This document shows, piece by piece, positions 15,828-35,533 of a stretch of DNA of 64,000 bases. The position numbers were made by a program, and so were the translations under genes. Source of the stretch: Cenococcum geophilum 1.58 (lineage: Eukaryota > Ascomycota > Dothideomycetes > Gloniales > Gloniaceae); assembly GCA_001692895.1 (NCBI GenBank), contig KV748181.1:124001-188000 (forward strand), in the 5' to 3' direction. The notes under the pieces were generated by a model, which searched no databases, was not told the origin of the DNA, and worked only from the letters and a program-made list of their open reading frames with translations. Numbering within the stretch: the first letter of the stretch is position 1; every line of letters starts with the position of its first letter.

Positions 15828-16085
15828 TGTGAGGCAGTATTGCCAGGGTGTACGGTAGGGAGCAGGCAAGCCGAGCATGAGTCACATAGGGAGTCGATGG
15901 AAGAGGACGATATGGTAAAGAGTAGGCAATAGCCTCGTACGGAGAGAGACGAACCGATGAGGAGGGAAGGGCTGCAAGCCTGAGGTGCTTATAAGGAGGT
16001 GCAAGGGCTAGCCGAAGGCTAGCCTTGGCGACCCCTAAGAGTCCCTAGGCGATGCAGCCGAGTAAGGGCCAAAATAACCCTTACA
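15828..16085 (-). repeat. LTR 1 of the tandem array
   Basis: Begins TGTGAGGCAG and ends CTTACA on the plus strand. It is the least AT-shifted of the three copies. Confidence 0.8.
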
Positions 16086-16499
16086 TTGCCCCCCCCTTGG
16101 TTAGGGCTGGCCCCCAGCCCGTATCCCAATAGATTGATTCTATGTACAGAAAGGTAAGCAGTGCAGAAGCCCTTGCTGTACAGGGGAATAAAGAAATAGG
16201 GGAAAAGGACCAGCCAAGCAGCCTCAATAAAACTTAACCTATGGCCAAAACCCAGTGGGAAAAAGGGCCTATTTTAGGTAGAAAAGAGCGTCTGCTTAGG
16301 GGGTAAGACTTGATCGTATCAGTCTTGGAGACAATCGCCTGCGATTAAGTCTCGACAGCTCTATGGCTGACAGCCAGATAGTCTCCACTTGGAGCCGGCT
16401 TGATCGCAAGAATATCCCTTATATTCCCCCCCCCCTTCTTGCGGTCAGCCCCCTCCATTACCTTACGGTAGCGGGAGATTATAGAGGGCTCGTCCCGGA

Positions 16500-17400
16500 A
16501 GGTTCGGAGAGATGTTGATAGGGTCTTGTGAGCTTTTGAAGCAAGCTGGAGCTCTTAGAGCAACCAAAGCTTTGCTAAGAGATGATCGCGTAGGATCTTT
16601 GAGCTGTTGCCATTCTCTTGGGCAAGCTATAGCTCTTGATGCAAGCTGGAGCTCTTGGAGCGACCAAAGCCTTGCAGAGAGATCGCGTACGATCTTTGTA
16701 AGACGTAGCTCTTTTTTAGAGACTTTAAACTGACGTCTTAATTGCCTTCCCCCGGCCGCGCAATTAGTTTTTGTAAGGAAGTGATGGCTAAATAGCTATA
16801 CGCGTGTTTCCTTCCTTCTGAATTACACTGTTATTACGGAGTAATATTGGCAATAAAAAGAGATCTCGTGGGATCTAAGAGCTGCTGCCATTCTCTTGGG
16901 CAAGCTGTAGCTCTTGATGCAAGCTGGAGCTCTTGGAGCGACCAAAGCCTTGCAGAAAGATGATCGCGTACGATCTTTGAGCCGTAGCTCTTGAAGCAAG
17001 CAGTAGCTTGCGAGATCACATAGGATCTCTGAGCCGAAGCTCTTGAGGTAAGCCGTAGCTTACGAGGTCTCCTAGATCTCAGAGCCGTAGCTCTTGAACG
17101 AGCCGTAGCTCTTGAAGCTGTAGCTGTAGCTATAGCTTAAGGATGGCATTTAACCGCAATAGGATCTCATAAGCTGAGCTTATAACTTCAGAAGAGACAA
17201 TCGCGTACGATTAAGTCTCGGCAGCCCTTAGGCTGACAACCGGAGAGTCTCCGGGTCGGAGCCGTAGCTCCGTAAGAGATCACATAGGATCTTTAAGCCG
17301 CCGCCATTCTCTTGGGCAAGCTGTAGCTCTTAAGGTAAGCCGTAGCTTAATAGGAGACAACCGCCTACGGTTTAGTCTCGGCAGCTCTATAGCTGATTGA
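16500..17400. repeat. Imperfect internal repeats inside the LTR-array internal
   Basis: A module of about 100-130 bp containing GATCGCGTAGGATCT, CCATTCTCTTGGGCAAGC and GCTGGAGCTCTTGG recurs at about 16578, 16860 and 17270. The same modules recur in AT-shifted form at about 18840, 18960 and 19060 in the second internal. They are non-coding. At about 16740-16855 copy 1 carries extra sequence bounded by ATTGCC/GGCAAT that copy 2 lacks. Confidence 0.6.
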
Positions 17401-18089
17401 GCAGTAGCCCTTAATTGCATTTAATCTGGAAGAGCATGGTAGTAGCTATAGCTTTAAAAACTAGCCGTTAGTTCTTTGGATAGCCATTAAATAGCAATCG
17501 GATAGCCTCCAGGGTAGCTATATCTCTTTAAGGACGTTCAACCTTCCAATCTCTGTTAGTGGGACCTCTGTAGCGAGTGAACCGCGGTTAGCCTATAGAG
17601 TGTTTGCAAGCTTAATCGCGTAGGACCCCCCTTAACGCCTGCCAGAAAGCTTTCGGATAGCAATCGAATCGCCTTCGGGTCGCCGTCGGGGCAGAGCTAT
17701 ACCGCTGCACTGTCGATTGTATGCGTATACCAATCGCGTTAAGAGATGATCGCGTACGATCCGGATAGCACCGACCCTTGGCTAGGTAGCTACCGTCTCC
17801 CTTGTCTCCTGATCCATGTCTACCACCGTAAGCGGATGCGATCTGCCAGACGTCTTGCTAGTATAGCTGCTTTGCAGCATACGCGATTGTCCTAGGTAAA
17901 GGTAGAGGACCTAATCCGTATTCCAACACCGTTATGCGGATACGATCTCCAGGCGTCTGCTGGTGTACCTGCTGTGTCGCAGTGAACGCGATCGTCCTAG
18001 GTAAAAATGGAGGATTGTGAAATTGCTCGAGGGCGCAGCCCTCGGCTTGCTGCAGGCTACCACCCGCAAGGGTGTAGGATTGGTTCGAA

Positions 18090-18350
18090 TGTAAGGCAGT
18101 ATTACTAGGGTATATGGTAGGGAGCAGGCAAGCCGAGCATGAGTCATATAGGGAGTCGATGGAAGAGGACGATATGGTAATAAGGGTAGGCAATAGCCTA
18201 AGTACAGAGAGACGAACCGATAGGGGAGGAAGGAGGCTGTAAGCCCGAGGAGCTTATAAGGGGTGGCTAAGGCCTAGCCGAAGGCTAGCCTTGGCAGCCC
18301 CTAAGAGCTCCCAGGATGTAGCTAAGTAAGAGACCAAAAGTACCCTTATA
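18090..18350 (-). repeat. LTR 2 of the tandem array
   Basis: Collinear with LTR 1. It separates the two internals. Confidence 0.8.
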
Positions 18351-19993
18351 TTGCCCCCCCCTTAGTTAGGGCTAGCCCCCAGCCCGTATCCTAATAGATT
18401 AATTCTATATATAGAAAGGTAAGTAGTGCAGAAGCCTTACTTATATAGGGGAATAAAGAAATAGGGGAAAAGGACTAGCCAAGCAGCCTTAATAAAAACC
18501 TTAACCTATAGCTAAAACCCAGTGGGAAAAAGGGCCTATTTTAGGTAGAAAAAGAGCGTCTACTAGTGGGGTAAGACTTAATCGTATACAATTAGTCTTA
18601 AAGAGACAATCGCCTGCGATTAAGTCTTAACAGCTCTATGGCTAACAGCTAGATAATCTCCACTTAGAGCCGGCTTAATTACAAGAATATCCCTTACATT
18701 CCCCCCCCCTTCTTATAGTTAACCCCCTCTATTACCTTACGGTAGCGGGAGATTATAAAGGGCTCGTTCTAGAAGGGTTTGGAGAGATATTAATAGGGTC
18801 TTATAAGCTTTTAAAGTAAGCTAGAGCTCTTAAAGCAACTAAAGCTTTACTAAGAGATTGCGTAGGATCTTTAAGCTACTGCTATTCTTTTAGGTAAGCT
18901 ATAGCTCTTAATATAAGCTGGAGCTCTTAGAGCAACTAAAGCTTTATAGGGATAATCGCGTAGGATCTTTAAGCTGCTGCCATTCTCTTAGGCAAGCTGT
19001 AGCTCTTAATATAGGCTAGAGCTTCTTAGAGCGACTAAAGCCTTATAAAGAGATAATCGCGTATAATCTTTAAGCTGCTACCATTCTCTTAGGCAAGCTA
19101 TAGCTCTTAATATAAGCTAGAGCTCTTAGAGCGACTAAAGCCTTATAGAGAGATCGCGTATAATCTTTAAGCCGTAGCTCTTAGAGCAAGTAGTAGCTTG
19201 CGAAATCACATAAAATCTCTAAGCCGAAGCTCTTAAGGTAAGCCATAGCTTAATAAGAGACAACCGCCTACGGTTTAGTCTTGGCAGCTCTTTAGCTAAT
19301 TAGGTAGTAGCCCTTAATTACATTTAATCTGGAAGAGAGAGTAGTAGCTATAGCTTTAAAAACTAGCCGTTAGTTCTTTAGATAGCCATTAAATAGCAAT
19401 TGGATAGCCTCTAGGGTAGCTATATCTCTTTAAGGATGTTTAACCTTCTAATCTCTATTAGTGGGACCTCTATAGCGAGTAAACCGCGGTTAGCCTATAG
19501 AGTGTTTACAAGCTTAATCGCGTAGGATCCCCCTTAACTCCTACTAGAAAGCTTTTAAATAGCAATTAAATTACCTTTAGGTCGCCGTTAGGGTAGAGCT
19601 ATACCGCTGTACTATTAATCGTATACGGGTATACCAATCGCGTTAAGAGATAATCGCGTACAATCTAGATAGTACCGACCCTTAGCTAGGTAGCTACCGT
19701 CTCCCTTATCTCCTAATCCGTATCTACTACTATAAGCGGATACGATCTGCTAGACGTCTTGCTAGTGTAGCTGCTTTACAGCATACGCGATCATTCTAGG
19801 TAAAGGTAGAGGACCTAATCTGTATTCCAACACCGTTATGCGGATGCGATCTCTAGGCGTCTGCTAGTGTACCTACTGTGTCGCAGTAAACGCGATCGTC
19901 CTAGGTAAAAATAGAGGATCGTAATTTTACTCAAGGGCGCAGCCCTTAGCTTGCTGTAGGCTACTACCCATAAGGGTATAGGATCGGTTTAAA

Positions 19994-20136
19994 TGTGAGG
20001 CAGTATTGCTAGGGTGTACGGTAGGGAGTAGGCAAGCCGAGCATAAGTCATATAGGGAGTTAATAGAAGAGGACGATATGGTAAAGAGTAGGTAATAGCC
20101 TTATACGGAGAGAGACGAACCGATAAGGAGGGAAGG
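19994..20136 (-). repeat. LTR 3 of the tandem array, left half
   Basis: Collinear with the first ~140 bp of LTR 1. It stops exactly at the TIR of the 15.3-kb DNA transposon. Confidence 0.8.
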
Positions 20137-20152
20137 TTATCTCAGTAAGCAA

Positions 20153-20291
20153 CTTAGACGGCAAACGAGACTAAATCTTACTAGTACTTAACTAGTATAG
20201 CTTTATATAAAACCCCTACTAGCTTTATTAAACCCCTGCTAGCGTTATATAACCCCTATAATTATAAGCGCCGTCTCATTTACCGTCTAAG
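20153..20291. repeat. Left subterminal fold-back of the helicase transposon
   Basis: Arms 20153-20171 (CTTAGACGGCAAACGAGAC) and 20273-20291 pair as an inverted repeat with two transitions across 19 bases, with a loop of about 100 bp. The CTTAGACGGCA core overlaps the inner part of the TIR. Confidence 0.7.
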
Positions 20292-20729
20292 GGCCTTTAG
20301 TGCAAAAACATAGGTGGGTCGACTTATTAATAGAACGCGACACTACTAAAGAGCAATATATCTCCACTAGTTGACTAGTTAACCACTATAAAAGGTAATC
20401 AATTATATTTTAAGGGCCGCTTTATTTATCTATATACTTATTTATACGTTTTAGCTAATATAAAGTTCTAAAATTATAGGTCGAAATTTCTCAACGCGTT
20501 TTTTTACCTTAACTCGTACACAAATTCTCTCTTAATGCCTCAAAGTAAGCGGTATTACTAACAACAACGTAACAACCTGCGCTATAACCCTTTAACTTCT
20601 CTAGCCTCTTCAACTCCTCCTAAGGCCCAGTTATATACTGCCTGAATAAAATATATACCGACCTTAACTATCCTACAGCTCTAGAGGCTCGTATTAGATG
20701 GTTTCAAACCCTAGAATATTAAGCATTAA

Positions 20730-23475
20730 ACAGAAATGCTTACCCGTGCTATATGCCAACTCCTTAGGGGAAAGAATCCCTATACTTAGTAGGTTAGGGC
20801 GCTCCACCAACTAATTTACAGAATAGGGGATACTATACTTATTGCAAAAACTGGCTTTGGTAAAAGTATTATATTCTATACTTTCTTAGTCTTAACTAGC
20901 CAGATTATAATATAGCTTATCCCATTAAGTAAGCTAGGGAAAGAATAGGTTAAGTTAATTCGTTAATACCCTGGTATAAACCTATACTTAATATTAGCGG
21001 ATACAAAATTCCAGAACCCTTAACTGCTTAAGGACATTAAGAATGGTATATATACCCATATACTACTTAGGCTAGAGCAAGCTATATCTCCTAAATTCTA
21101 AAAGATCCTATAGGATCCATTCTTCCAGTATTAAGTTAGACTAATAGCTATTAATAAGTATCATCTGCTCTACCAGTAAAAGAAGTTTTAGAGCAACTTT
21201 ATCTTAATCCACAAGCTACGCCGGTCTCTCCCGTTAAGTATTATTTTCTTTAGCTACTCTACAACTATAGATATTAAGATAGAGTAAGTAGTAAAAAAAT
21301 ATAGTGGGTTTCAGCCAGAGGGAACTAAACCAGGTATATTAGAGATTATCCGCACGTCTATTAACCGGCCGGATATTATAATCTATGTGTTTCCGATACT
21401 AAAAGGAAAGATATACTACTATAAGCAGTTATACTTCTTACTTAACTAAGCAGTCAAGTCTTTAGGCGGTAGCTTAACCCTTTAAAAAATCCCAAAAACG
21501 ATTGTATTTCTTAATAGTAGAAGACGCATTACGGCAGTCTCTTAGTACCTCAAGGAGTCTCTTGTCCAGAAGGGCTACTTAACACATCTTATAAACCAGA
21601 TAGTTGGGATATATACATCTTATATAGCGAAGTATAATCAGGATAGGATATACAATGCCTTTAATAGTAAGCAGTCGGATATTCGGATTATAGTAGCTAT
21701 AACTACTCTCGGAATGGGTATAGATATACCAGATATTAATAGGGTTACCTAATAGGATTTCCTAATTACAGATAACGTTGGAGATCTATAGCAGAGGTTC
21801 AGCCGTACAGCAAGGGCTCGCAATAAAACTAGAGTAGCTATATTCTTTATACCATATTAGGCACTTAATCAGCTAGGATACCAAAAGAAGTTAACTAAAG
21901 AAGAGGTTACTAGTTAAATAACGTCTAAGCCAAAACGTAGACGCAATATACTCTTACGCAATTACCGGGCGAGTTAGTTATAGCAATTATTTTCTTAAGG
22001 GAGCAGTTGCAAGTCCAATTCAGATCATAATAGCAACTTATTAGACTAGTACCCTTATTTAAACCGAGAACTTAACGGCATAGCTACTAACTAGTTAACT
22101 GGTAAGAATAAAGTTTATCCCTAAATAAAGCAGGAGATTAAAAATAGGGACTCTATAAGCGATTATTAGAGGGCTATACTAAATAGCAACTGCTACCGTA
22201 AATACCCACTTAAGTTTCTCTAGAAGGATAAATGTAATCCTAAGACGTAAACTCTAAAGGCACCATAAGAGAGTTATTGCAACAGTATAGGTTATAACCC
22301 TAATTTTCTTATTATAACTACTGCGCCGACTACTCCTGTCTCCCTTTAAAAACCAAACTTAGGCTTAAAGCAAGGTATTGCCCTCTAATAGCTAGTTAAG
22401 TGGTATTAAGTATAAGCGGATAAGTTGGTCCTAATAGAAGAGAGATTTACTCTAATGCCTTCTTCATATTTCTTACCTAGTCACTACTAGTAGGCAATTA
22501 TACGCGCCTTTAATAAGGTTACCTCAGCCGCCGAGTTTCCAATACGAACTATGGAAGATCTCTATAAGTATTTCCTATTAGACAAATAGAAGCATACTAT
22601 AGCTTAAGGAGAGCGGCTAGTTTAGTTCCTTCGCCAGAATATAAACAGTATACTAGCTAAGTGGTTAGAGTCCAGAAAATCTAAGAAACTGGTATCTAGC
22701 ACTAGTAACTCGTCACCTAGGACTAGTAGCGCTAGTAATAGTAAGCTTACGGCTAATAAATAAAGGGCACAGGTTATAGAAAGACAAACTAAGATTAATA
22801 ATAAGACTACTTTACTAGTTATATTATAGCAAAAGAAGCTTATAGAGAACCATACACACTTATTTAGCTCAGCATTAGAATTCCCTTTCTTAACGGTAGT
22901 ACCATCTTCAGCTAGAGGAGTTACTTCATCTCCCCTTAACCAGTATAGTATGCCATCCCCTCCACCACAGTATAACCAGTCGCTAGAACGAGGTTATAGT
23001 AGTTCTTTACACTAGTCACAGCAGCAAGAAATTAAATGCGAGTAGTTGCAGGAACCAAAATTATAGAGTAGTAAGAGCGTAGTACCAGAGACTAAACTAG
23101 TAGTATTAAAGACTTAACTAGTGGTGCCAGAGACTTAACTAGTGGACTTAGAGACTTAACTAGTAGACTCGTAGACTACTTTACTAACCGACAGTATAGA
23201 ACCTAGTTTAGAACCACCTATAACTCCTAGTAGTAGAACTTATAGAGGTAGAAAAAGAAAGGTAATAACTACAGATTCTACTACTAATAAGATATAGCGG
23301 GGTTTAGAGGGTATAGCTTCTATCTTACACAGGCGGTTAATATTAGCACCTATTAGTAAGAATATTAGCGGCCTAGTATTAAAAAACTATAGTAAAGAGA
23401 TAAGAAATAATGGGCGGAATAGGCGTAAGCGGTCATTAATACTAAAAGCTATATATTTAGGAATATGGGAGGTAT
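20730..23475 (+). pseudogene. RecQ-type superfamily 2 DNA helicase of the transposon
   Basis: One frame (with RIP-type stops) shows the helicase motifs in order: GDTILIAKTGFGKS (motif I/Walker A, about 20830), an INKYHLLYQ segment in the DEAH position (about 21150), LSIIFFSYS (motif III, about 21235), IVFLNSRRR (about 21505), then VATTTLGMGIDIPDINR (about 21690-21740) and LQQRFSRTARARN-type motif VI (about 21790). A long C-terminal tail with low-complexity Ser/Gln regions and repeated 'ETQLV' units (about 23085-23180) runs to a stop near 23475. The helicase unwinds DNA using ATP. Similar RecQ-like genes are common in fungal subtelomeric and repeat DNA. The start is not fixed. It is broken by many C-to-T changes. 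Confidence 0.8.
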
Positions 23476-24485
23476 AAATAACAAGGGCTTAGCATTTCTT
23501 TATTACGTGCTAGTAGGGTATAAGTAGTTAATCTCTAAGTAAACTTTTATATTAAATTAAACTAAAAAGCAGTTAAGGAATTAATTGGCCTATTTATTCA
23601 ACCATTCTAAAGGCCATAAGTTACCACTTATTTATCCTAAAAAGAAAACTATAAACCTATTAAACTATAATCTACTAGTTATATACGCGATTCTTAGGCA
23701 GCTTATATAATATACTCCTTATCATTATATATATTTATAAATATGGGTTTAGGCCAACGGACTAATCGGGGAGGAGCCTAAGGAGTCAATAATAGAGAAT
23801 TTTGAGTAGTCTAATTATAAGGAGCAGAGCGCCGGGAAGAAGTCCAAGGGGTTAAAGCTAAAGGAGTAGAGCATCGGGAGGGAGTCTAAGGAGTTAGATA
23901 AGGATTTATAGAGTTATATAAGAGCGGCTAGATTAAGAAGTTAAAAGGAGGTAGTTAGTCTACTAGCGGAGGTACACCATTATGCTGCTTTATCTAGTCT
24001 AGAAACTAAGCTACCTATTTCTTAGAGTTACAAATAAACCGGCTAACTAGTTAACTAAGTCTTAAGATATTACTAAAGGAAATTAATAATATACGTATCG
24101 TATTACCGTATAGTGGTAACTTATTAGAGAACAGGTTAAGTAGTCGCACTTAATAGTTTAGTTAATTATAAGTGTTAAGACTCGCCACCACTATATATTA
24201 AGGTGGAACGAACGCTAAAGAAGTTAACCCGCGCATAATACTAATCACGATAGCACCTAGATAACTCGCCATATTAAGAAGATTAGTCTAACGTTCCTCT
24301 ATCAGATAGACTAGTAGTAGTTAGGTAGATATACTTAAGGCCACGCCATAAGACGCCAGAACACTACGACCAGTTAATATTAGAGTACCTCTACTAGTTA
24401 ACGTACAACCTACGGAGAAGGCATACGGCTATTATTACCTCTCCTTAAGAGGCGTGGGCTCCTTATCATCCGATAGGTTAATAGG
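23476..24485. other. Transposon interior, left of chromovirus A
   Basis: AT-rich sequence after the helicase stop, with a two-copy ~50-bp repeat near 23800-23900 (units containing GGAGCAGAGCGCCGGGA and GGAGTAGAGCATCGGGA). No further gene recognised. Confidence 0.35.
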
Positions 24486-27400
24486 TGTCACAGTGCTGCA
24501 ATAAAGTAGACTAAATAACTACGTTATGGTATAAAGAGGGGAAGAAGGTGGAAAGGGGGTATTATATACAAATAGTAGGGCCGGCCGCCAAGTCGCTAGT
24601 AGTAGGCTAGCTAATAGTAAGGAACAGTACGAGACAGTATAAAACAGTATGCGTTAGGTCAGTGCCATAACAGTACTCCTCTCCCCTAGACGGTTTGGTC
24701 CCCAAACTAAATAGATAACTTAAAAATAGGCAGTGTACGGGGTTGCCTATTTTCTACCGCAAAGATATTAGTTCCGCTTACCGCCCTTAACCGAGCCAAT
24801 GGCAATTTTCCATGCCGGGCATAAAAAATCCTAATTAGTTAGTTTAGTGAGTAAGGTCGGCAGAACTCCACACCGCCACCTAAATCAGTCCGTATGGCGT
24901 TTCTTGGCGAGAATTTAGCTAATTAGACAACTTTAACCGCCGGTTAAAGTTTTATAATATCTTAACCACCACAAATTTTAATGCGGTGGTCGGCCGTGAC
25001 CTTAGCGTGACTTTTCCTTATCTTATACCCAGTCTAGGGGTCTTGGCTTCTTAAGGTGTTGCTTATAAAAGCACTATATAGCTTATTTATAACCCTTTAG
25101 GTCTTCCTCTAGCTACTAGGTTATATCCTTATAATATTTCCATTTAATCTTATAAGTTAGGCCCTGGGGGTCTTCGTTATATACATTAAGGATTTTCTTA
25201 AACTCCCATTTATCTTCTATATTACCGTTATTATCTCTCTCTATCATTTATCCTTATATATTACGGCGCTCTATAGTATTAATATTTGCTTAGCTAAGGA
25301 TCTCTTTAGCAGCCTAGAGGCGGACCTTAGATATATAAAAGGATTTATTTACTTAAATATAGTCCAGGAGGTCTACTACGACTACCCCTTAGTATACTGC
25401 GAGTACGGGGTACGGGCCGTCCTATTTGTCGTCCTATTTCTTCTTAGGTCTATTTATCTTCATATTTTCTAAGCTAACTATAACTATATTACCTTCGTAG
25501 AATAACACGCTCTCGTCCCTACGGGTATTAGTATTATCTTTATAGCGTTACTATAAAATCCAGGCTAGAGCCTTAAGCTGTATTAATATCCGCTTAAAGC
25601 AGTTAGCCACAGAGTTTACGCAGAAGAACTCCTTCTTTGCTTATACTAATAGTGTTAATAGGTGGGGGCCAGCAGGCTTAATTCCGAGGCAAGGGTTAAA
25701 GCTATAGTTTGTAAAAAACGGGGAGATACCTATACTCTTATTAACTTAGTTATTTATAGTAAACTTGGCAAGCGGCAGGTAGTTAACCTAGTCGTCCTAT
25801 ATAAAGCTAATAAAAGCATAAAGGTATTTATTTACGGCGGCGTTAATAATTTCGGTTTAGCCGTCCGTTTCTAGGTACTAGGCTAAGCTTAGTCGCAAGG
25901 TTGTCTTAAGGCGTTTACTTAGTTATCGCTAAAAGTCGCTAATAAATTATATACTGTAATTAGAGATAATTATACTTAGTACACTGTGGAGCTTATATAC
26001 GTTATTAATAAAGCTATTAACTAACTCCTCTATTAAGAGTCCTGTTACTAAAACAAGGTGTTATATTTTAGTTAGGCGGTCTATAATAATAAGGATATAT
26101 TTATATACCTTACCATGGCGTTAGCATACTAGCAGCGTTATAATATAATCAATTAAGATATCGGTCTATAGGCGGGCGGGTAATTCTAATAGCTTTAGGA
26201 AACCGGGCGGGGCAAAATAGGGGGTCTTAGTGCAAAAGTATAGGGCATAGTCTTTAATAAAGGTAGCCGTAAACTAGGAGATTCCTAGCCACCAGTATGT
26301 TCGGTTTAAGAGGTTAAGAGTCTTAACCTAGCTAGGGTAACTAGCGGGGCCGCTACTATAAGAGTAATAGGTAACTTCTAGGCGGAGGTCTAGGGCGTTA
26401 GGGATAAAGAGATATTAGCGGAAGTAGATCTGTCCGTTAACAATACTATATTCTAACTTATCACAATAGAGTAATTTCCTAATTTTCTTTAGCTAACGGC
26501 AAGCTTTCTAATTATATAGGGCTGCCACTATATCTCTTACAAGTTCGTTCTTCTAGTATCCTAGCCAAATTAACTCATCTAGTGACTTTTCGGCTATTTT
26601 AGGGTCTAAAGCGGCTATAAACTCCGCGTTATTAGAGTTACGGGACTTATATAGTAATTCTTCTAAGATTATAGGGTTAACTTTCTGGGGCGGTATAATG
26701 ACTTAGGCTTAGTAGCGGAGGCGTTTATTATTAGCGTCCTTAGGCCTTATTCCTAGTAGCTAGCTTAGGGCGTTAGGGAGCGTAGCTTTACTACCGGGTC
26801 TATATATAATTACAAAGTTAAACTATAAAAGGAACTCTGCCTACCAGACTTAGCGCTAGTTTAGCTACTTAGTAGTTATAAACGTCTATAGGTTCTTATA
26901 GTCGGTAATAATTTTAAACAGCTCCTCAGTCCCTTACAGCTTAGGACGCCATTCCTCTAAAGCCTTAACAATAGCTAGAAGTTCTTTATCGTAAATCTCA
27001 TAGTTACATTCTGGCGCGGAGTGCTTTACGGAGAAGAATGCGACCAGTCTTAATTTTCCGTCGTCGTTATACTAGGAAAGAACTCCACCAGAAGCCCAAT
27101 TTAATACGTCTGTCTCTACCACTGTTTTCTTCATATAGTTATAGTATGCTAGTACTAGTGCTAAAGTAAAGGCTCCCTTAAGGGCCTTAAACAATTTGGC
27201 TTATTCTAGTCCCCATAGCCATCCAATATCCTTCTTTAGAAGTTTTATTATAGGTATAGCGATAGTAAAGTAGCCTTAGATAAATCGTCGGTAGAAGTTC
27301 GCGAAGCTAAGAAATTATTATAGTTCTTTAATTAATATCGGGTCCTTCCATTTCTATAAGGCCTATATCTTCTTAGGGTCCATAGTTATGCTATTAGTCG

Positions 27401-30400
27401 AGATAATTAAGCCAAGGTATTTTGTTTTAGTAGAGTAGAACTTAGACTTATTAATATTAATCTNAAGTCNAGNATTGCNNAGTCTTTAGATNACTTNATT
27501 TANATACTTANTATNCTNNGCGCGTNTTTTAGAAAAGATAAGGACGTTATTAAGGTAGGCAGTGCAGTAGTTATTAAGGGCGTTATATAGAATATAGTTA
27601 ATATAGTTTTAGAATATAGCGGGTGCGTTATAGAGGCCAAATAGTATAACTAGTATCTTATAGAGTCCAAACCGGGTAATAAATGCTATAAGCTACTTAT
27701 GGCCCTCCGTAATCCAGATCTGGTTAAACGCAGTAATTACATTAAGTTTAGTAAAGTACTTAGCGCTATAAAGTGCGTTAAGTGTCTCGCGGATTAGTAG
27801 CAGTAGGTATCAATTCTTAATAGTAACTGTGTTTAGGCCTTAGTAGTTATAGCAAATTCGTACACCACCGCTAGGCTTAACAGCGAGGAGGAGTAATGCG
27901 GCAGCTAGTAAGGTTGATTCGCGGATAAAACCCTTATCTAGCATCTTATTAATCCACTTCTTTACACACCTAAGTTTAGCAGGTAAGAGTGGTCTATTTT
28001 TATAGTACGGGGCCTAGTTTCCGGGGGTAATCTCAATTTTATGGTCCCATAGTTAGTAAGGGGGCAGCTTATCTATATTCTTAAGAAGGAAGTGCTTAAT
28101 ATATTTACTAAACTCCTTTAGTAGGCGTTATAGAATATCTTCGCAGGTTAATCCTGGTTTGCCTTTTAGGAATTTTTTAACATCAGTGTTAACTATCTTC
28201 TAACGTAAAAGCTTGGGTTTAGTTTTTAGATTTATCTTAAGGAAGTTATAGAAATAGGGGGGGAGCGCTTTACAGGCTTCCTTTATTATATAGTCGCCTT
28301 CTACCAGCCAGCAGAAAGATCTTTTTAATAGGTTTAGTACTTCTATTAGGCCTATAGGCAGCTCTTTAAGCAGCTGTCGGTGCTTATCTTATTTAACCAG
28401 TTCTACTAGCTCCGCTATATAGATCCTTATTACCTTTACGTCTTTTTATTTATAGAACTAGGTAAAATTAATAGCATAGGTGCATTTAATATCGTCTAGG
28501 TTAGGGTATATCTAGCTCTCCGGTGCTATAGCTAGGCTAGCACGGCTTAGTTAGCCTAGGGGGGCGGAAACGAGGCGGTGGCCCTATATAGTACGCGCGG
28601 GAGATAGGTATAAGGTTAGGCGTTACAGTGGCGCGGTTTTTATTATCCGGGTCTCGGTAGTTCCATAGCTAGTCCTTACTATAACGCGAGCTATAGTGTA
28701 CGTATATGGCATATGGCTTAGTTTTAGGTGTTAGGCTAGGCGGCTAGGGTTTAAATAGTGCCTAGGTTAGGGTTAGTTTCTTAATAGTGGCGGCACGAAG
28801 CGGACCTTCTTCCTTAGTCTTAGCAGGGCTAGCTAGCCCGTCATTTTAGTCTTAAGTGCTAAGTTAGTTTAGTCTTCCACTATCTCGTTTCTTTACAGCT
28901 ATATAGACTCCCCTTTATTAGGAACGTCTTCTACTATTAGGGCTTTATATATAGTCCTAGGCACTAGGCTTAGTAGTGCTAAGTATCTACATAGGGCGTC
29001 CCTACTAACGTCGGCTATCCCCTACAGGAGGTAGTACCTAAAGTAGTAGTCTAAGTTAAAGTAGATCTTAAGTTTCCTAAAGCTAGGACGGGGCTTATAC
29101 TTCTAAAGCCAGGGCATACCTAGGATAATTGGGGTAGCGGGCGAGAGTTTAGTAATAAAAAAGAGCATAGCTTTAGTATAGAGGCCGATTAATATTTAGG
29201 CGGTGAAGTAGTCTATAATAAGCGAAGTTAGGATACTATCTGCAAGGCGCAGTAGCCTAGGTACCAGCAGCTTCTTAGTTATAACGTTATACTTTCTTAT
29301 AATAGACTCTNCGTNNGTAAATNCNATTATAGTACTACNNGAGTCNACTANGCTTACTATATTAATATAAACTTAGGGGTATAGGTTACGTAATAAGGAG
29401 AGTTAGGTTTAAATAAGGATTAATTTCTTATTACTATTTACTAATCTAAGATTAAGTGGCAGTTTACTAATAGAAAGGACTAATTAATCTAGTAACAGGG
29501 ACCTAATCTTCTCGTCTTCCTCCTTATATAGTTTAGACCCTTAGGCGTAACTTAGTCTAAGGGTTTACCTTTTAACGACTAGGGTATAAGGCTATCTTAG
29601 CGGGGTAGTCTAGTATCTATCTAGCTGGCGGTATCTATCTCTATTTCAGTCAGGGTATAGGAAAATAATACCTCACCAACGACATAGCTGTGTTCGTATT
29701 CGCTAGCGCGAAGTCACCAATACTAGGCGTTATTAACGGGTTAGGCTCCTATATAGGGCATAGTTTAGAGTAACTAAGCCATAGGGTTAAAGGGGGGGGG
29801 TTATCCGCCGCGGCTATAATAGGCTCCGCGGTCGCCGCGTCTATAATAGACTCCACAGTCGCCGCGTCCGCGGTTATTTATTCGCGTCGTTTAACGGGGT
29901 AGCATTAGGACTAGGTTTACTATCTTAGTAGGGTTATAGGCATCCTTCTAGTGGCCAAGCAGGCCACAGGCAAGGCACAGTCTATTATTAACGCGGCGCT
30001 TATGCTCCGTGTCTAAGATTCCATTAAGGTCTATAGGTTCTCTAGTCACTACTAGGGTCGGGGTTAACATAGGGGCAGGGGCTTAGGTAGGTAGGCGGTA
30101 GTTAGCGTTCTTCTTAAGGTTAGCTTGGTGTATATAATTCGCAAGGTTCTTAGCAAATATATTTATCTGCTTACTCCAACCTGTATAGTCGCTATTATTA
30201 ATTTCGTGGGCTAGTCTAAGTACCAGCTCTTCCATCTTCGGAGAGATAAACTTTCAGAGTAGGTCCACCTTCTATTTATCTATCTTTTTGGCGTGGACCA
30301 TTAGCTTATTAAGCTCTTCCTTCTAGAACTAGTAATTACGCTCGCCTTAGGGGAAATGGTTAAGCTTATTCTTTACGACCTGGGTTATATTAAGGACCTC

Positions 30401-31400
30401 ATAGTAAGCAGTAAGGTCTTTAAGCATATCTTCCTTAGTAGGCCATTTCTACGCAGATATATTATTTAGGTTCTCGTATATAAGCTCTAGGCCCTACTTA
30501 ATAAACTTATAGGCCTTATCCTCTAGTATATCCGAGATATAAAGGATCTAGAACTAAACTGTGTTAAAGTAGTCCTAGTCCCAGTTAAAGACTCCCTTAA
30601 TCTTAATATACTAGGTCTTAAAATTAGCTTATCGTTCTAGCGGGGTGCCTTTTCCGCTAAATATTGGCGGGTCTTTAGATCTCCGTTTTTTCTGCTAGGT
30701 TACTACTGTTATTATAGGGGTTAATTATTTTAGAACGGTAATAGTCTCTACCTGGGAGTTAATAGTTCCTATCTAGGAAGCGATAAGGGCACTAAGGTTT
30801 TTGTTAGCTTTTTTGTTGGCGGTATTTGTGTTATATATACACTGTAGTCCTACTTTAATATTATTAAGGAACTCATTGGTATAGTTAATAAGGGTAAGGT
30901 AAGCTTTACTAGGCTTAAAGGTCTTAGGGTATAGTAGGGAGCGGCAGATTATCCACGCGATATTAGGGTATGTCTCTATAAATAGGTCTACAAAAACGTC
31001 GCGGGGGTTTTAGGTTTCGGCCATTTCGGCATTATTAGTGTCGCCTATCTAGGCGCTAAGTAAAAACTAAGGATTATTCTAGGACTGTGCTAGGGATGTA
31101 TCGGTTTTAGCAGAGGCGCGCGTAGGTCGCGATTGCTCTAAGGTAGAGGTTAATTAGCTAGGGTACGGGGAATCAGTAATCGCGATAGGGCGTAAATTAA
31201 AGATACCACAAACTATTACAGTACTATAATAAAGTAGACTAAATAACTACGTTGTGGTATAAAGAGGGGAAGAAGGTAGAAAGGGGGTATTGTATATAAA
31301 TAGTAGGGCCGGCCGCCAAGTCGCTAGTAGTAGGCTAGCTAATAGTAGGGAACAGTACGAGACAGTATAAAATAGTATACGTCAGGTCAGTACCGTAACA
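24486..31400 (-). mobile_element. Chromovirus A (Ty3/Gypsy LTR retrotransposon), fossil
   Basis: LTRs of 187 bp each (24486-24672 and 31214-31400) with a perfect 5-bp duplication atagg (24481-24485 and 31401-31405). On the minus strand the parts lie in the canonical order: gag (about 30.1-31.1 kb), zinc knuckle (about 29.95 kb), protease (about 29.3 kb), reverse transcriptase (about 27.4-28.3 kb), RNase H, integrase (about 25.5-26.7 kb) and an integrase-end chromodomain (about 25.1-25.2 kb). It is complete in architecture but heavily broken by RIP. It is younger than the helicase transposon it interrupts. Clusters of ambiguous bases occur at about 27464-27526 and 29311-29350. Confidence 0.88.
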
Positions 31401-31405
31401 ATAGG

Positions 31406-32429
31406 GTACTAGGAGGCATATAGACGTCATTACCTCTCCCTAAAAAGCAGGGGCTCCTCATCATTTAACTACTCCGACTACTGCGACTACTGCGGCTGCT
31501 ATAACTACCAAGACCGCTATAACTACTCCTAGCCAGCACTATCCTTATACTTAGCACTATTATTCTCATCCTTATTACTACTAATTATAATTAGTTTACC
31601 GGCATCCTTACCACTCTTATTACTGCTAATTTAAGTTAGCCCACTTAAGGAGCCAAAGCGGATAGTATACGACTAGAGAGGCTGGCAGCGGTTAGCTAGG
31701 TCGCGGTTTATATCCCAGGTTAACCGCTAGTCTACTTAACCCCTACAAGCGACTACTGCCCACCTATCTATAGCGACAGTATTAGAGGTACCTATTAACT
31801 AGTCTTTAACATTATTTAGGGTCACCATATCCACGCCCTTAGGTGGGGTCTAGTCGCGGAGCCTATTAGGGTAGAGGTAAAGCAACAGCTATTGGATCTA
31901 TAACTTTAGAAACCTAGCAGTATACATCTTAAACGGGTTAAGATAGAGGACATTAAAAAAGTTAATATTAAGGAGGGAGGAGTCGGGACGGCCGGTAAAG
32001 CTACTAGGATTATAAATACCAACTATAATAAGTGATCTACTACAAGCAGTCAGTAAAATGGTTTTCTTAAGACAATAATATAAGAGATAATAGATACGAA
32101 CCGTGCAGTAACTTAAAGGGGTAGACTATAAGGAGTAAGAAGTTAGTAGGCAGTTATTAATTATAACTTAAGCAGCGGCGCTAAAGGAGCGGCGGGAGCA
32201 GTAGAGCAGCGGCAGTAATCGTTTAACTATAGATAGAAGTAGCTACGGCGGAGGAGTACGGGCAAGAGTAGAGGCGGTAGTTAAAGATTGCTTACTACTA
32301 GGTAGTTATAGAAGAAGTAGTTAACAATAAGCTAAATAAGTAGTTGGGAGGAGGGGTAATAAGTAATAAGCCAAATAGGTAGTTAAGGGGTCAAGGGGGT
32401 AAAGTATAGCAGTTAAGTAAAGTTAAAGT
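31406..32429. other. Transposon interior between chromovirus A and the DUF6589 gene
   Basis: A low-complexity stretch near 31470-31510 (repeated ACTGCG/ACTACTGC) and a short direct repeat AATAAGC-AAATA near 32325 and 32370. No gene recognised. Confidence 0.35.
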
Positions 32430-34880
32430 AAAGCAGTTAATAACCTCCATCCTTAGTATAGAATATATTATTAATTGCCTCTATATAATCTCTAAGTGCT
32501 AATAGCTTAATAATAGTAGTAGATTACTCCTCATCTTTAAACGAAATAGAAATAATCTTATTAGGTATAGTAACATTTTAAAGATTAAACAAGTAAATTT
32601 TTTCTTTAAGAAGCTCTATACTATTAGCAAGAATATTAATAAACTTAAATTAACTACTATAATTCCTATTAACTGCTTAGATATGTATATAACCCTCAGC
32701 CTAGAGATAATATATAAGACTAAATATATCAGCAAGTGCTAACTTTTTACTATATTTAAAATTGGTTCTTTAACTAAATAAAGTCTCTAGTATAGCACGT
32801 AGTTAAGAAATATATAAACTAGTAAGCGCAACCCGTTTAAATGTCTTTTTAACATTATAAGTAGAGTTCTTATATAGTTTCATATTAATAGCATAGCAGC
32901 AGTTAACATACTCTAGGGCAAGATCAATTACCTTAAAGGTATTTAGTTAACCCGCTAGATTTACTAGACTTAACGTAAGAATTAATTATTAAAGCTTAGC
33001 AGTCGCAATCCAATCTATAAGAAGCCATTAAAGATAAAGCATCTCGTATCCGTACTGTAACTATTTAGCCCTATAGAACCAGACAGAGAGTAGATTAACT
33101 AGTTAGCGGATTAGACTAATATCGCCATAACGGATAGCATGCCGTAGGACCATAAAAGCTTTAACCTATTAGAGATACCAACATATACTAAGAAACTCCT
33201 TATTATTATACCCTTAACCAGTCTAAGCGGAGTAGGTAAATGCTTATTATTATATACGCTTAATTAACATAAGAAATTAAGATAGAGTTAGCTGTATAAT
33301 AGCATCGTTATAGAACTCTTTCCTATTATTTTCCTTGCTATTAACCCCTTAGAACCATCCCTTAGTACTAAGTACGTTATACCAGAGTGCGACTACTTAA
33401 GCCGTCTAGCCTTATATAATTAATAGCTTAATAAGATAGAATTTAGCATTCTCTTATAAGATTCCATGCCGGCTCTAGTAGCCAATATTATAAAGGAGTG
33501 TAGCCTTTAAGTAAGTGCCAGGAGGACTCTCCTAGTAAGTACGAACTATAAGGTAGAGAAAACTTTAAAGGATATAAAAGAACGCGGGTAGCCTAAGCAA
33601 CCAATCCTAACGGTTAAAAGCTTAACTGGTAAGAGACTGCTCGGTTTTTACGCTCCTAATATATTAAACAGTCTTTTAATCGCCCTAGGCGAGCCAAAGG
33701 CGCTAGGTAAAATAGCCTAACTTATCGTCCTCTTTAAGGCTAAGTTTGTGGATCTAGATATCCTAATAGACACTATATATACCTTTAATTATACCCTTAT
33801 TATAAAAGATTGCACCTAGCTGTTATAGAACAGTCTTTTAAGGAGGTAGTAGGTTAAGCTTTAGTACTATAGGAAAAAGACCTAGCTTACTGCTAAAAAC
33901 ATATTCAACTGCTTATAAATAAAGCTTACGGATAGCAGTAGCAATAAAGTATATTAACAACTGCTATAAGATATAGTCCCGTCAAAGACCTAGAGATAAG
34001 ATAATATCGTTAAAAAGAAGCGGTTATAACAGGTTAAACATTAACTGCTTAAGGCTAGTAGTTAGAATCTTAGGATAAAGTACAAGAAGCGTAATAGTTA
34101 TATTACGCATTCTTATTCCGGAAGACCTAAGCACTTAATCTCTAACGTCATCCTTAAAATTAAAGTTATTATAGACTAGTAGCGCTTAAGGATTAACTGC
34201 AAGGCTTTTTAGCTTATTCTTTTTATTAGTTAGCTATATAAAATATAGGCTAGGAGGTTAAACCTTCCTTTATATTATCAGCAATATCTATAAGGTATTA
34301 ATTAATATATTTATAACCATCATAGAGACCTAGCCTAGCTAATACCTTAATAACTTAACGCTTAATACTACTCCTAAGTAGGTAGATTTCTAATATTTTT
34401 ATAAAGAAATTGGTAGTAGACCGCGTACGACTTCTATAGATAATAGAAGTAATTAAATATAACTACTGCTGGACTATCTTAGAATTGCCTAACCCTTTAT
34501 AACTGCTCCAGCCCTAGCGTTAATTGCTTATAAGCTTTTTAAGCAGAGCAGTCTATTTAGGAGTAGTCAATTTAATTTTTTCCAACACTTAAGAGAAGTT
34601 AACCTTCTCCATAGAGGTAGAGTGATTAAACTTATTAAAATATGGCTGCCTAAGTAGTGCATCGAGTTCTTAGATAAGTTTTATTAAGGAAATATCCCCT
34701 ACTAACACGTAACTAGTTAATTAAAGGGCTATATAAACTTCCGCTTGTTCTAAAGCAGAATATAATAATAAGACCCGCTAACTAATATAAAGGCCACCCA
34801 ATCCATTATTAACACCCTCTATAACCTATGCCTTAAGGAATTACTTAATATTAAAGTTGTTCTGCTGCTATAGTATTTAT
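32430..34880 (-). pseudogene. DUF6589-family protein, candidate transposase of the element
   Basis: One minus-strand frame (with RIP-type stops) runs through the signature blocks that I recall for the fungal DUF6589 family: LEIYLLRSSIKRQVIKVLAR-like text near 34.4 kb, VYNNFNFKDDVRD (about 34.16 kb), MRNITI (about 34.08 kb), a DWLLRLPAFFYI block followed by SFLYLIVRTY (about 33.55-33.6 kb), and MVLRHAIRYGDISLI (about 33.12 kb), then EMLYL. The family is widespread and expanded in fungi and has no proven function. Its place between intact TIRs makes a transposase-like role the natural inference. The gene is convergent with the helicase. The exact start and end are not resolvable. Confidence 0.7.
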
Positions 34881-35263
34881 ATCGCCCGTAGCTTTTAGCG
34901 CTAGATAAAAGGGCTCTACCGTTTTCTAATTCGCCTTTAGTGACTAGTAAGGGGTATAGTTACTTACCTTTAAGGCGACGGAAATATAGAGGATGGCGTT
35001 AAGGGGGAAATAGAGTTAATATCGGAGAGTGGAGATAAGGACGCGTCGGTATCTACCCAAATACTAAAAGCGCGTAACTTGTAAGGAGGTTATATTCCCA
35101 TTATAAAAAAGTAATCGATTATAGAGGAGACTGGTCTAATTTAACTCGTCAGCTTATTAGGTTAAAAAGGTATTATTAGGGAGTTAAATATACAGGAGGA
35201 AGTGTCTCTTATATAAAATTGCTTAGATTAAAGTTAAGCGCCATAGAGTTCCGCACTATAGGT

Positions 35264-35394
35264 CCTTAGACGGCAGGGTAAACTAAAGGTTAGTAGGTAG
35301 CTGATTAGTTAAAAAAAGTGGCGTTTTTTAGGATGGAGACTAGTGATACTTTAGTATTAGTGAGTGCGCCTTTAGTTTGCCCTTGCCGTCTAAG
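35264..35394. repeat. Right subterminal fold-back of the helicase transposon
   Basis: Arms 35264-35289 and 35369-35394 share CTTAGACGGCA-GG-AAACTAAAGG in inverted orientation with about one indel and one transition, and a loop of about 80 bp. It mirrors the left end. Confidence 0.7.
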
Positions 35395-35410
35395 TCGCTT
35401 ACTAAGATAA

Positions 35411-35533
35411 AGGGAAGGGCTGTAAGCCTAAGGTGCTTATAAGGAGGTGCCAAGGGCTAGCCGAAGGCTAGCCTTGGCGACCCTAAGAGTCCCTAGGCAA
35501 TGCAGCCGAGTAAGGGCCAAAATAACCCTTATA
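35411..35533 (-). repeat. LTR 3 of the tandem array, right half
   Basis: Resumes after the DNA transposon (its first 8 bases are the target duplication) and ends CTTATA beside the gcgcc duplication of the array. Confidence 0.8.

Follow-up and report, generated by a model that had tools for sequence, protein, structure and literature searches.

Which enzyme moves a transposon that carries both a RecQ-like helicase gene and a gene of the DUF6589 family, and to which group of elements such a transposon belongs, are the questions raised by a locus of the fungus Cenococcum geophilum 1.58. The stretch analysed, hereafter the window, comprises 64,000 nt (positions 124,001 to 188,000 of contig KV748181.1), and the element lies between terminal inverted repeats (TIRs) at window positions 20137..35410. 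A preliminary description, made from the sequence alone, had suggested that DUF6589 is the transposase and that the helicase travels with it. With a probability of about 0.87, we consider the element a class II TIR transposon, 8.35 kb long when uninterrupted, in which DUF6589 is the DDE transposase and the RecQ-like helicase an accessory; the role given to DUF6589 is supported by its recurrent linkage to RecQ, by TIRs and duplications, and by its predicted fold.

Borders and genes of the window copy

The TIRs, previously given as 27 bp, are present and measure 28 nt each, 26 of which (93%) are complementary. The 8-bp target-site duplication AGGGAAGG was found again at both borders, and the empty site proposed in a sister long terminal repeat (LTR) was recovered as well: when the flanks are joined with one AGGGAAGG kept, they align to this LTR, which holds a single AGGGAAGG, with 93.8% identity over 257 columns, and the sister LTR is therefore the empty site. 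A chance TIR match was ruled out, as a degenerate 28-mer (up to 3 mismatches) hit the window twice but not one of its 100 shuffles, and reversed-pattern controls gave none in 177 Mb. Within 15828-20136, long direct repeats occur at spacings of about 2.26 kb and 1.90 kb; they are partly diverged, and the TIR element is inserted in one LTR-like copy among them.

The two genes are convergent, as had been proposed, with Helicase_C on the plus strand and DUF6589 on the minus strand (Table 1). Both are broken, with 56 stops in 985 codons of the helicase gene and 45 stops in 597 codons of the DUF6589 gene. These stops are of the type left by repeat-induced point mutation (RIP), and the DNA of the element is strongly RIP-like (TpA/ApT 1.85, (CpA+TpG)/(ApC+GpT) 0.47). 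The broken DUF6589 copy scores 113.1 bits, to be compared with a Pfam gathering score of 27 bits, and a second helicase-C model matched weakly in the left half of the element. When the six frames of either half were scanned with Pfam, stops being masked as X, no other domain appeared at E<=1; a transposase domain other than DUF6589 was therefore not seen in the two halves.

The statement that the helicase and DUF6589 are the only recognisable genes holds for these two, but it overlooked an LTR retrotransposon lying between them. Its LTRs (TG...CA; direct repeats 24490-24675 and 31218-31403, 92% alike), its 5-bp duplication ATAGG and its reverse transcriptase and RNase H domains indicate that a retrotransposon of 6,915 bp split the TIR element; its borders were picked by eye and the ATAGG letters then checked. 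The interval of 15.3 kb includes this insertion, and once it is removed the element measures 8,354 bp, a length identical to that of the copy on contig C81. Single N letters are scattered in the retrotransposon, at about 27463-27528 and 29311-29351 of the window, which holds 31 N in total.

Table 1. Positions of the features of the element (window coordinates, unless a locus is named)
Feature	Position	Strand	Basis
Sister LTR, empty site	15828..16083	+	single AGGGAAGG at 15963-15970
Target-site duplication, left copy	20129..20136	.	AGGGAAGG, letters checked
Left TIR	20137..20164	+	TTATCTCAGTAAGCAACTTAGACGGCAA
RecQ-like superfamily 2 (SF2) helicase gene, broken	20535..23489	+	start aligned to P0032 residue 1; end approximate
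DEAD region of helicase	20817..21068	+	Pfam, weak, E=0.02, under Pfam cut-off in broken copy
Helicase_C (PF00271)	21483..21818	+	Pfam, E=2.2e-11
ATAGG duplication, left copy	24481..24485	.	letters checked
Nested LTR retrotransposon	24486..31400	-	LTRs, RVT_1 and RT_RNaseH domains; does not belong to TIR element
ATAGG duplication, right copy	31401..31405	.	letters checked
DUF6589 transposase gene (putative), broken	32440..34230	-	tblastn homology extends to 34696
DUF6589 domain (PF20231)	32773..33918	-	Pfam, E=1.7e-32
First putative catalytic Asp codon	34168..34170	-	by alignment; VYDNFNF in homologues, VYNNFNF (Asn) here
Right TIR	35383..35410	-	inverted-repeat comparison
Target-site duplication, right copy	35411..35418	.	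AGGGAAGG, letters checked
Inverted inner-TIR repeats	20137-20300, 35220-35410; L060 4800-4890; L062 5620-5735

Three TIR families and the linkage of the two genes

The genome examined was that of the window itself (177 Mb, 162 contigs), in which we distinguished three TIR families, A (the family of the window), B and C. TIR pairs were chosen by hand according to orientation and distance among the first ~100 places listed of 172 (A), 479 (B) and 185 (C), and the duplication counts exclude L042/L043 (C84), C12, C31, C36 and unpaired TIRs.

The 172 places of family A were found with its 28-mer at up to 3 mismatches, the reversed control giving none. Two full copies, L039 on C70 (8,269 bp, duplication GTTATATA) and L040 on C81 (8,354 bp, duplication GGGGAGTG), have RecQ on the plus strand near the left end and DUF6589 on the minus strand near the right end, with the same gene order, orientation and distance to the ends as in the window; L040 and the window halves are separated by 725 transitions and 2 gap columns, without a single transversion. 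In 10 of 12 long pairs, hand-picked from the places listed and spanning 6.6-64 kb, both genes are present and convergent (window, C70, C81, C27, C4, C9, C60, C12, C31, C36), and neither was found in C39 and C84. We assume that the very long pairs C4 (32 kb), C9 (61 kb) and C36 (64 kb) hold nested insertions; the flanks match at 7/8 positions in C4 and 8/8 in C9. The 8-bp duplication was perfect in 12 of 22 family A pairs, at least 7/8 in 18 and at least 6/8 in 21, L056 having none. None of 462 mispaired controls reached 7/8, and no pair had a perfect repeat at the other lengths tested from 5 to 11.

The TIR-bounded copies lacking both genes are L041 (C39, 6,555 bp), in which no open frame of 80 aa was found, and L042-L043 (C84, 11.2 kb). 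Short derivatives of 0.7-1.7 kb retain about 165-400 bp from both ends; those at L044-L057, internally deleted, mostly have a weaker RIP signature than the long copies, and CTCAGAC stands in many of them in place of the CTTAGAC of the long copies.

Family B was recognised on C23, where convergent DUF6589 and RecQ genes lie within 8,654 bp bounded by TTATCTCATAAATCAGACGC and TTATCTTATAAATTAGACCC and flanked by the duplication TAAAGAAG. None of 300 shuffles reached the observed score of this end match with a perfect duplication; a scan with loose thresholds was uninformative at this locus, since it returned a candidate in 18 of 20 shuffles. The end motif (up to 1 mismatch) gave the 479 places, with none in the control, and 7 of 11 pairs have a perfect 8-bp duplication (9 at least 7/8). 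Among the matches listed, both genes were found in three of eight long pairs (C2, C11, C23), DUF6589 only in four and neither in one.

Family C, whose ends read TTG(T/A)CTCAGCATGCTCAGACCA plus RIP variants, has open genes: L060 and L062, which overlap over 4,184 identical bases, contain a RecQ frame of 883 aa convergent with a DUF6589 frame of 957 aa (P0059, with three X due to N; PF20231 score 230.8 bits). Its end motif (up to 1 mismatch) occurs at 185 places, against 2 in the control, and its duplications are of 9 bp, perfect in 7 of 9 pairs and at least 8/9 in 8. Matching TIRs thus go with a duplication of fixed length in every family, 8 bp in A and B and 9 bp in C, judged with mispaired controls. 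A further full-length copy, L078 on C72, carries both genes and lacks any open frame of 200 aa. Several contigs share a break point within family C: C9, C42, C74 and C149 start in DUF6589, C43 starts and C41 ends in RecQ. These shared break points suggest recent, near-identical copies that the assembler did not span, the long comparison at the breaks being that of C149 with C43 (the 4,184 identical bases). The copy on C43 (L062) lies directly upstream of a frame from ~5760, which we take, by eye, to resemble a serine palmitoyltransferase gene. On C75, an open DUF6589 frame of 629 aa (L061 3984-5870) and an open RecQ frame of 1184 aa (G000:C75:763768-765066), convergent and 6.1 kb apart, possibly represent a fourth family; element ends were looked for around L061 and not found.

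To quantify the linkage, the genome was searched with a single protein of each kind, DUF6589 and RecQ, scoring the best 80 of 367 and the best 50 of 356 candidates, respectively; the resulting 102 and 85 matches merged to 79 and 47 loci. Among the matches listed, 42 of the 79 DUF6589 loci have RecQ within 20 kb (41 convergent, 1 divergent), and a DUF6589 locus lies no further away than this from 40 of the 47 RecQ loci, where uniform placement expects 0.84 pairs. The association of DUF6589, RecQ, TIRs and 8-bp duplications therefore recurs within this genome, in many copies and in more than one family. A search with the PF20231 model gave 102 matches, many at places not found before, and none in 14 control genomes.

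Some observations weigh against a constant pairing. In the same lists, 37 of 79 DUF6589 loci have no RecQ match within 20 kb (the converse holds for 7 of 47 RecQ loci), and no RecQ was found in 5 of 7 stretches of 5.5 kb downstream of DUF6589, although for one of the five a RecQ at a distance of 11.5 kb accounts for this; RecQ may be absent from some copies. Moreover, indirect matching of the RecQ and DUF6589 database proteins listed gave no pair from a shared source, which is mild and weak evidence against linkage elsewhere, both lists being short. Viral contigs searched with A2, A4, A5 (25 of 28 sequences; P0053, P0057 and P0058 excluded) and the TIR pattern gave no match, nor did a collection of genome contigs searched with A4. 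Pfam was run on 8 of 58 database proteins.

Predicted fold of DUF6589 and a possible route of transposition

The structure prediction proposed in the preliminary description gave, for a DUF6589 homologue, a model with an RNase-H transposase fold, in which a long helical insertion precedes the last catalytic helix of the RNase-H core. Its best structural matches were hAT (Hermes) and P element transposases, at ~10% identity; a sequence search of the PDB returned two rows at chance level. The alignment folded comprised 27 of 30 DUF6589 proteins (P0022, P0028 and P0030 excluded) and contains a conserved putative triad, namely the Asp of VYDN, the Asp of GDQ and the Glu of DLxLExxN (D12, D175, E427), located on the predicted model via secondary structure rather than by residue-level superposition. 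The Pfam match begins past the first of these Asp residues, and this may be the reason why the fold was overlooked.

Beyond this, we infer that DUF6589 is catalytic, that the element moves by cut-and-paste and not by copying, and that the helicase has a role in the process. The DUF6589 protein would bind and synapse the TTATCTCA... ends, its RNase-H active site would cut them, and they would be joined to the target with a stagger of 8 bp (A, B) or 9 bp (C), the 8-bp stagger leaving the 8-bp duplication. The RecQ-like helicase might unwind the ends, or aid gap filling, strand repair or repair synthesis. Inverted repeats of the inner TIR segment lie 70-170 bp inward at both ends of family C and at the right ends of A (1 mismatch) and B (2 mismatches), so that the ends could fold as hairpins for a RecQ enzyme to resolve; in the copies scanned, neither A nor B showed such a repeat at its left end. 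By eye, a left-end inverted repeat of family A is visible in the window, but none was found in L040.

Relation to known helicase-bearing transposons

The closest known system, likened by description alone, is AcademH, which is said to go back to Kojima in 2020. Whether the element is an ordinary AcademH member, DUF6589 being the part of the Academ transposase left unnamed in Pfam, is an even question, and an Academ relationship is a matter of equal odds. According to the excerpts of the published work cited here, AcademH encodes a helicase and is known from animals and fungi including Ascomycota (PMC10799480), a RecQ helicase is reported in Academ (PMC3627910), and AcademH duplications are of 9 or 10 bp (PMC10045372), the 9 bp being shared by family C; the published work drawn on also includes PMC12210899 and PMC10294476. 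On the other hand, families A and B duplicate 8 bp, the 8-mer being perfect in 19 of 33 pairs and a 9-mer or 10-mer in none of them (for the window family alone, 12 of 22 pairs are perfect at 8 bp and none at 9 or 10 bp; for family C, 7 of 9 are perfect at 9 bp). Since the window family is one base off the AcademH length, we did not file it as AcademH. Somewhat less probable, and put forward tentatively, is that DUF6589 marks a DDE superfamily of its own, distinct from both Academ and Kolobok. Such a superfamily would have RecQ as an ancestral partner, ends of the TTRTCTCA type and duplications of 8 or 9 bp, and would include at least one family (C) whose genes are open and whose copies, nearly identical, appear to be recent.

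The other explanations survive poorly. KolobokH, a fungi-only lineage of DDE transposons with RecQ according to PMC9587614, is likewise a fungal DNA transposon bearing such a helicase, but Kolobok is described there with TTAA duplications and a shared C/DxxH placed between the second Asp and the last Glu, whereas here the duplications are of 8-9 bp without TTAA, RecQ is a separate convergent gene and no C/DxxH position is conserved in 27 DUF6589 proteins, fragments included (scattered occurrences, none in 6 of 27); membership was rejected, and a Kolobok-type element is very improbable. That both genes are cargo or remnants of separate elements, the transposase being lost, might be thought of in view of the broken state of the window copy and of the retrotransposon nested in it, and because excerpted reports place RecQ genes in fungal subtelomeric repeats, one family being a chimera with DDE motifs (PMC4522978, PMC5576322); these are described at telomeres, unlike the window RecQ, which sits within a TIR transposon beside DUF6589. 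This explanation is largely refuted by the agreement of L039, L040 and the window, by the recurrence of the pairing in families with different TIRs and above expectation among RecQ loci, and by six-frame Pfam scans of the halves, which showed no transposase domain besides DUF6589. That RecQ mobilises the element and DUF6589 is the accessory would equally let the genes travel as a pair, and is highly unlikely, as the predicted fold and triad of DUF6589 suit a DDE enzyme, the 28 RecQ relatives listed carry PF00270 and PF00271, both helicase domains, joined in two of them by PF04851, and among the matches listed DUF6589 stands without its partner within 20 kb more often than RecQ.

DUF6589 as the transposase also recalls hAT (Hermes) and P elements by its RNase-H core and helical insertion, and hAT elements make 8-bp duplications, as do families A and B, though not C with its 9 bp. 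Nevertheless, hAT membership was rejected on the features tested, given the low identity, the lack of a conserved C/DxxH and the RecQ partner; no hAT model appeared at E<=1 in Pfam scans of the halves and some relatives. A Helitron-like origin of the helicase was also rejected, since TIRs and duplications are present and no Rep-type domain appeared in Pfam scans of the halves.

The preliminary description knew of no superfamily with this pairing; AcademH and KolobokH are already in print, and AcademH is perhaps the same thing. RecQ with a DDE transposase is thus a known kind, and the new part seems to be the DUF6589 assignment together with the 8-bp families: neither DUF6589 nor IPR046496 is named in any paper of the library searched, and the four hits for PF20231 bear titles on unrelated subjects. 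A Pfam family without function thereby gains a testable role as a transposase. Part of the RecQ genes scattered in fungal repeats may belong to such elements and are open to re-annotation. The occurrence of RecQ partners in three TIR families suggests that transposition of these elements does involve strand unwinding, and the open genes of family C provide material for asking what the helicase does.
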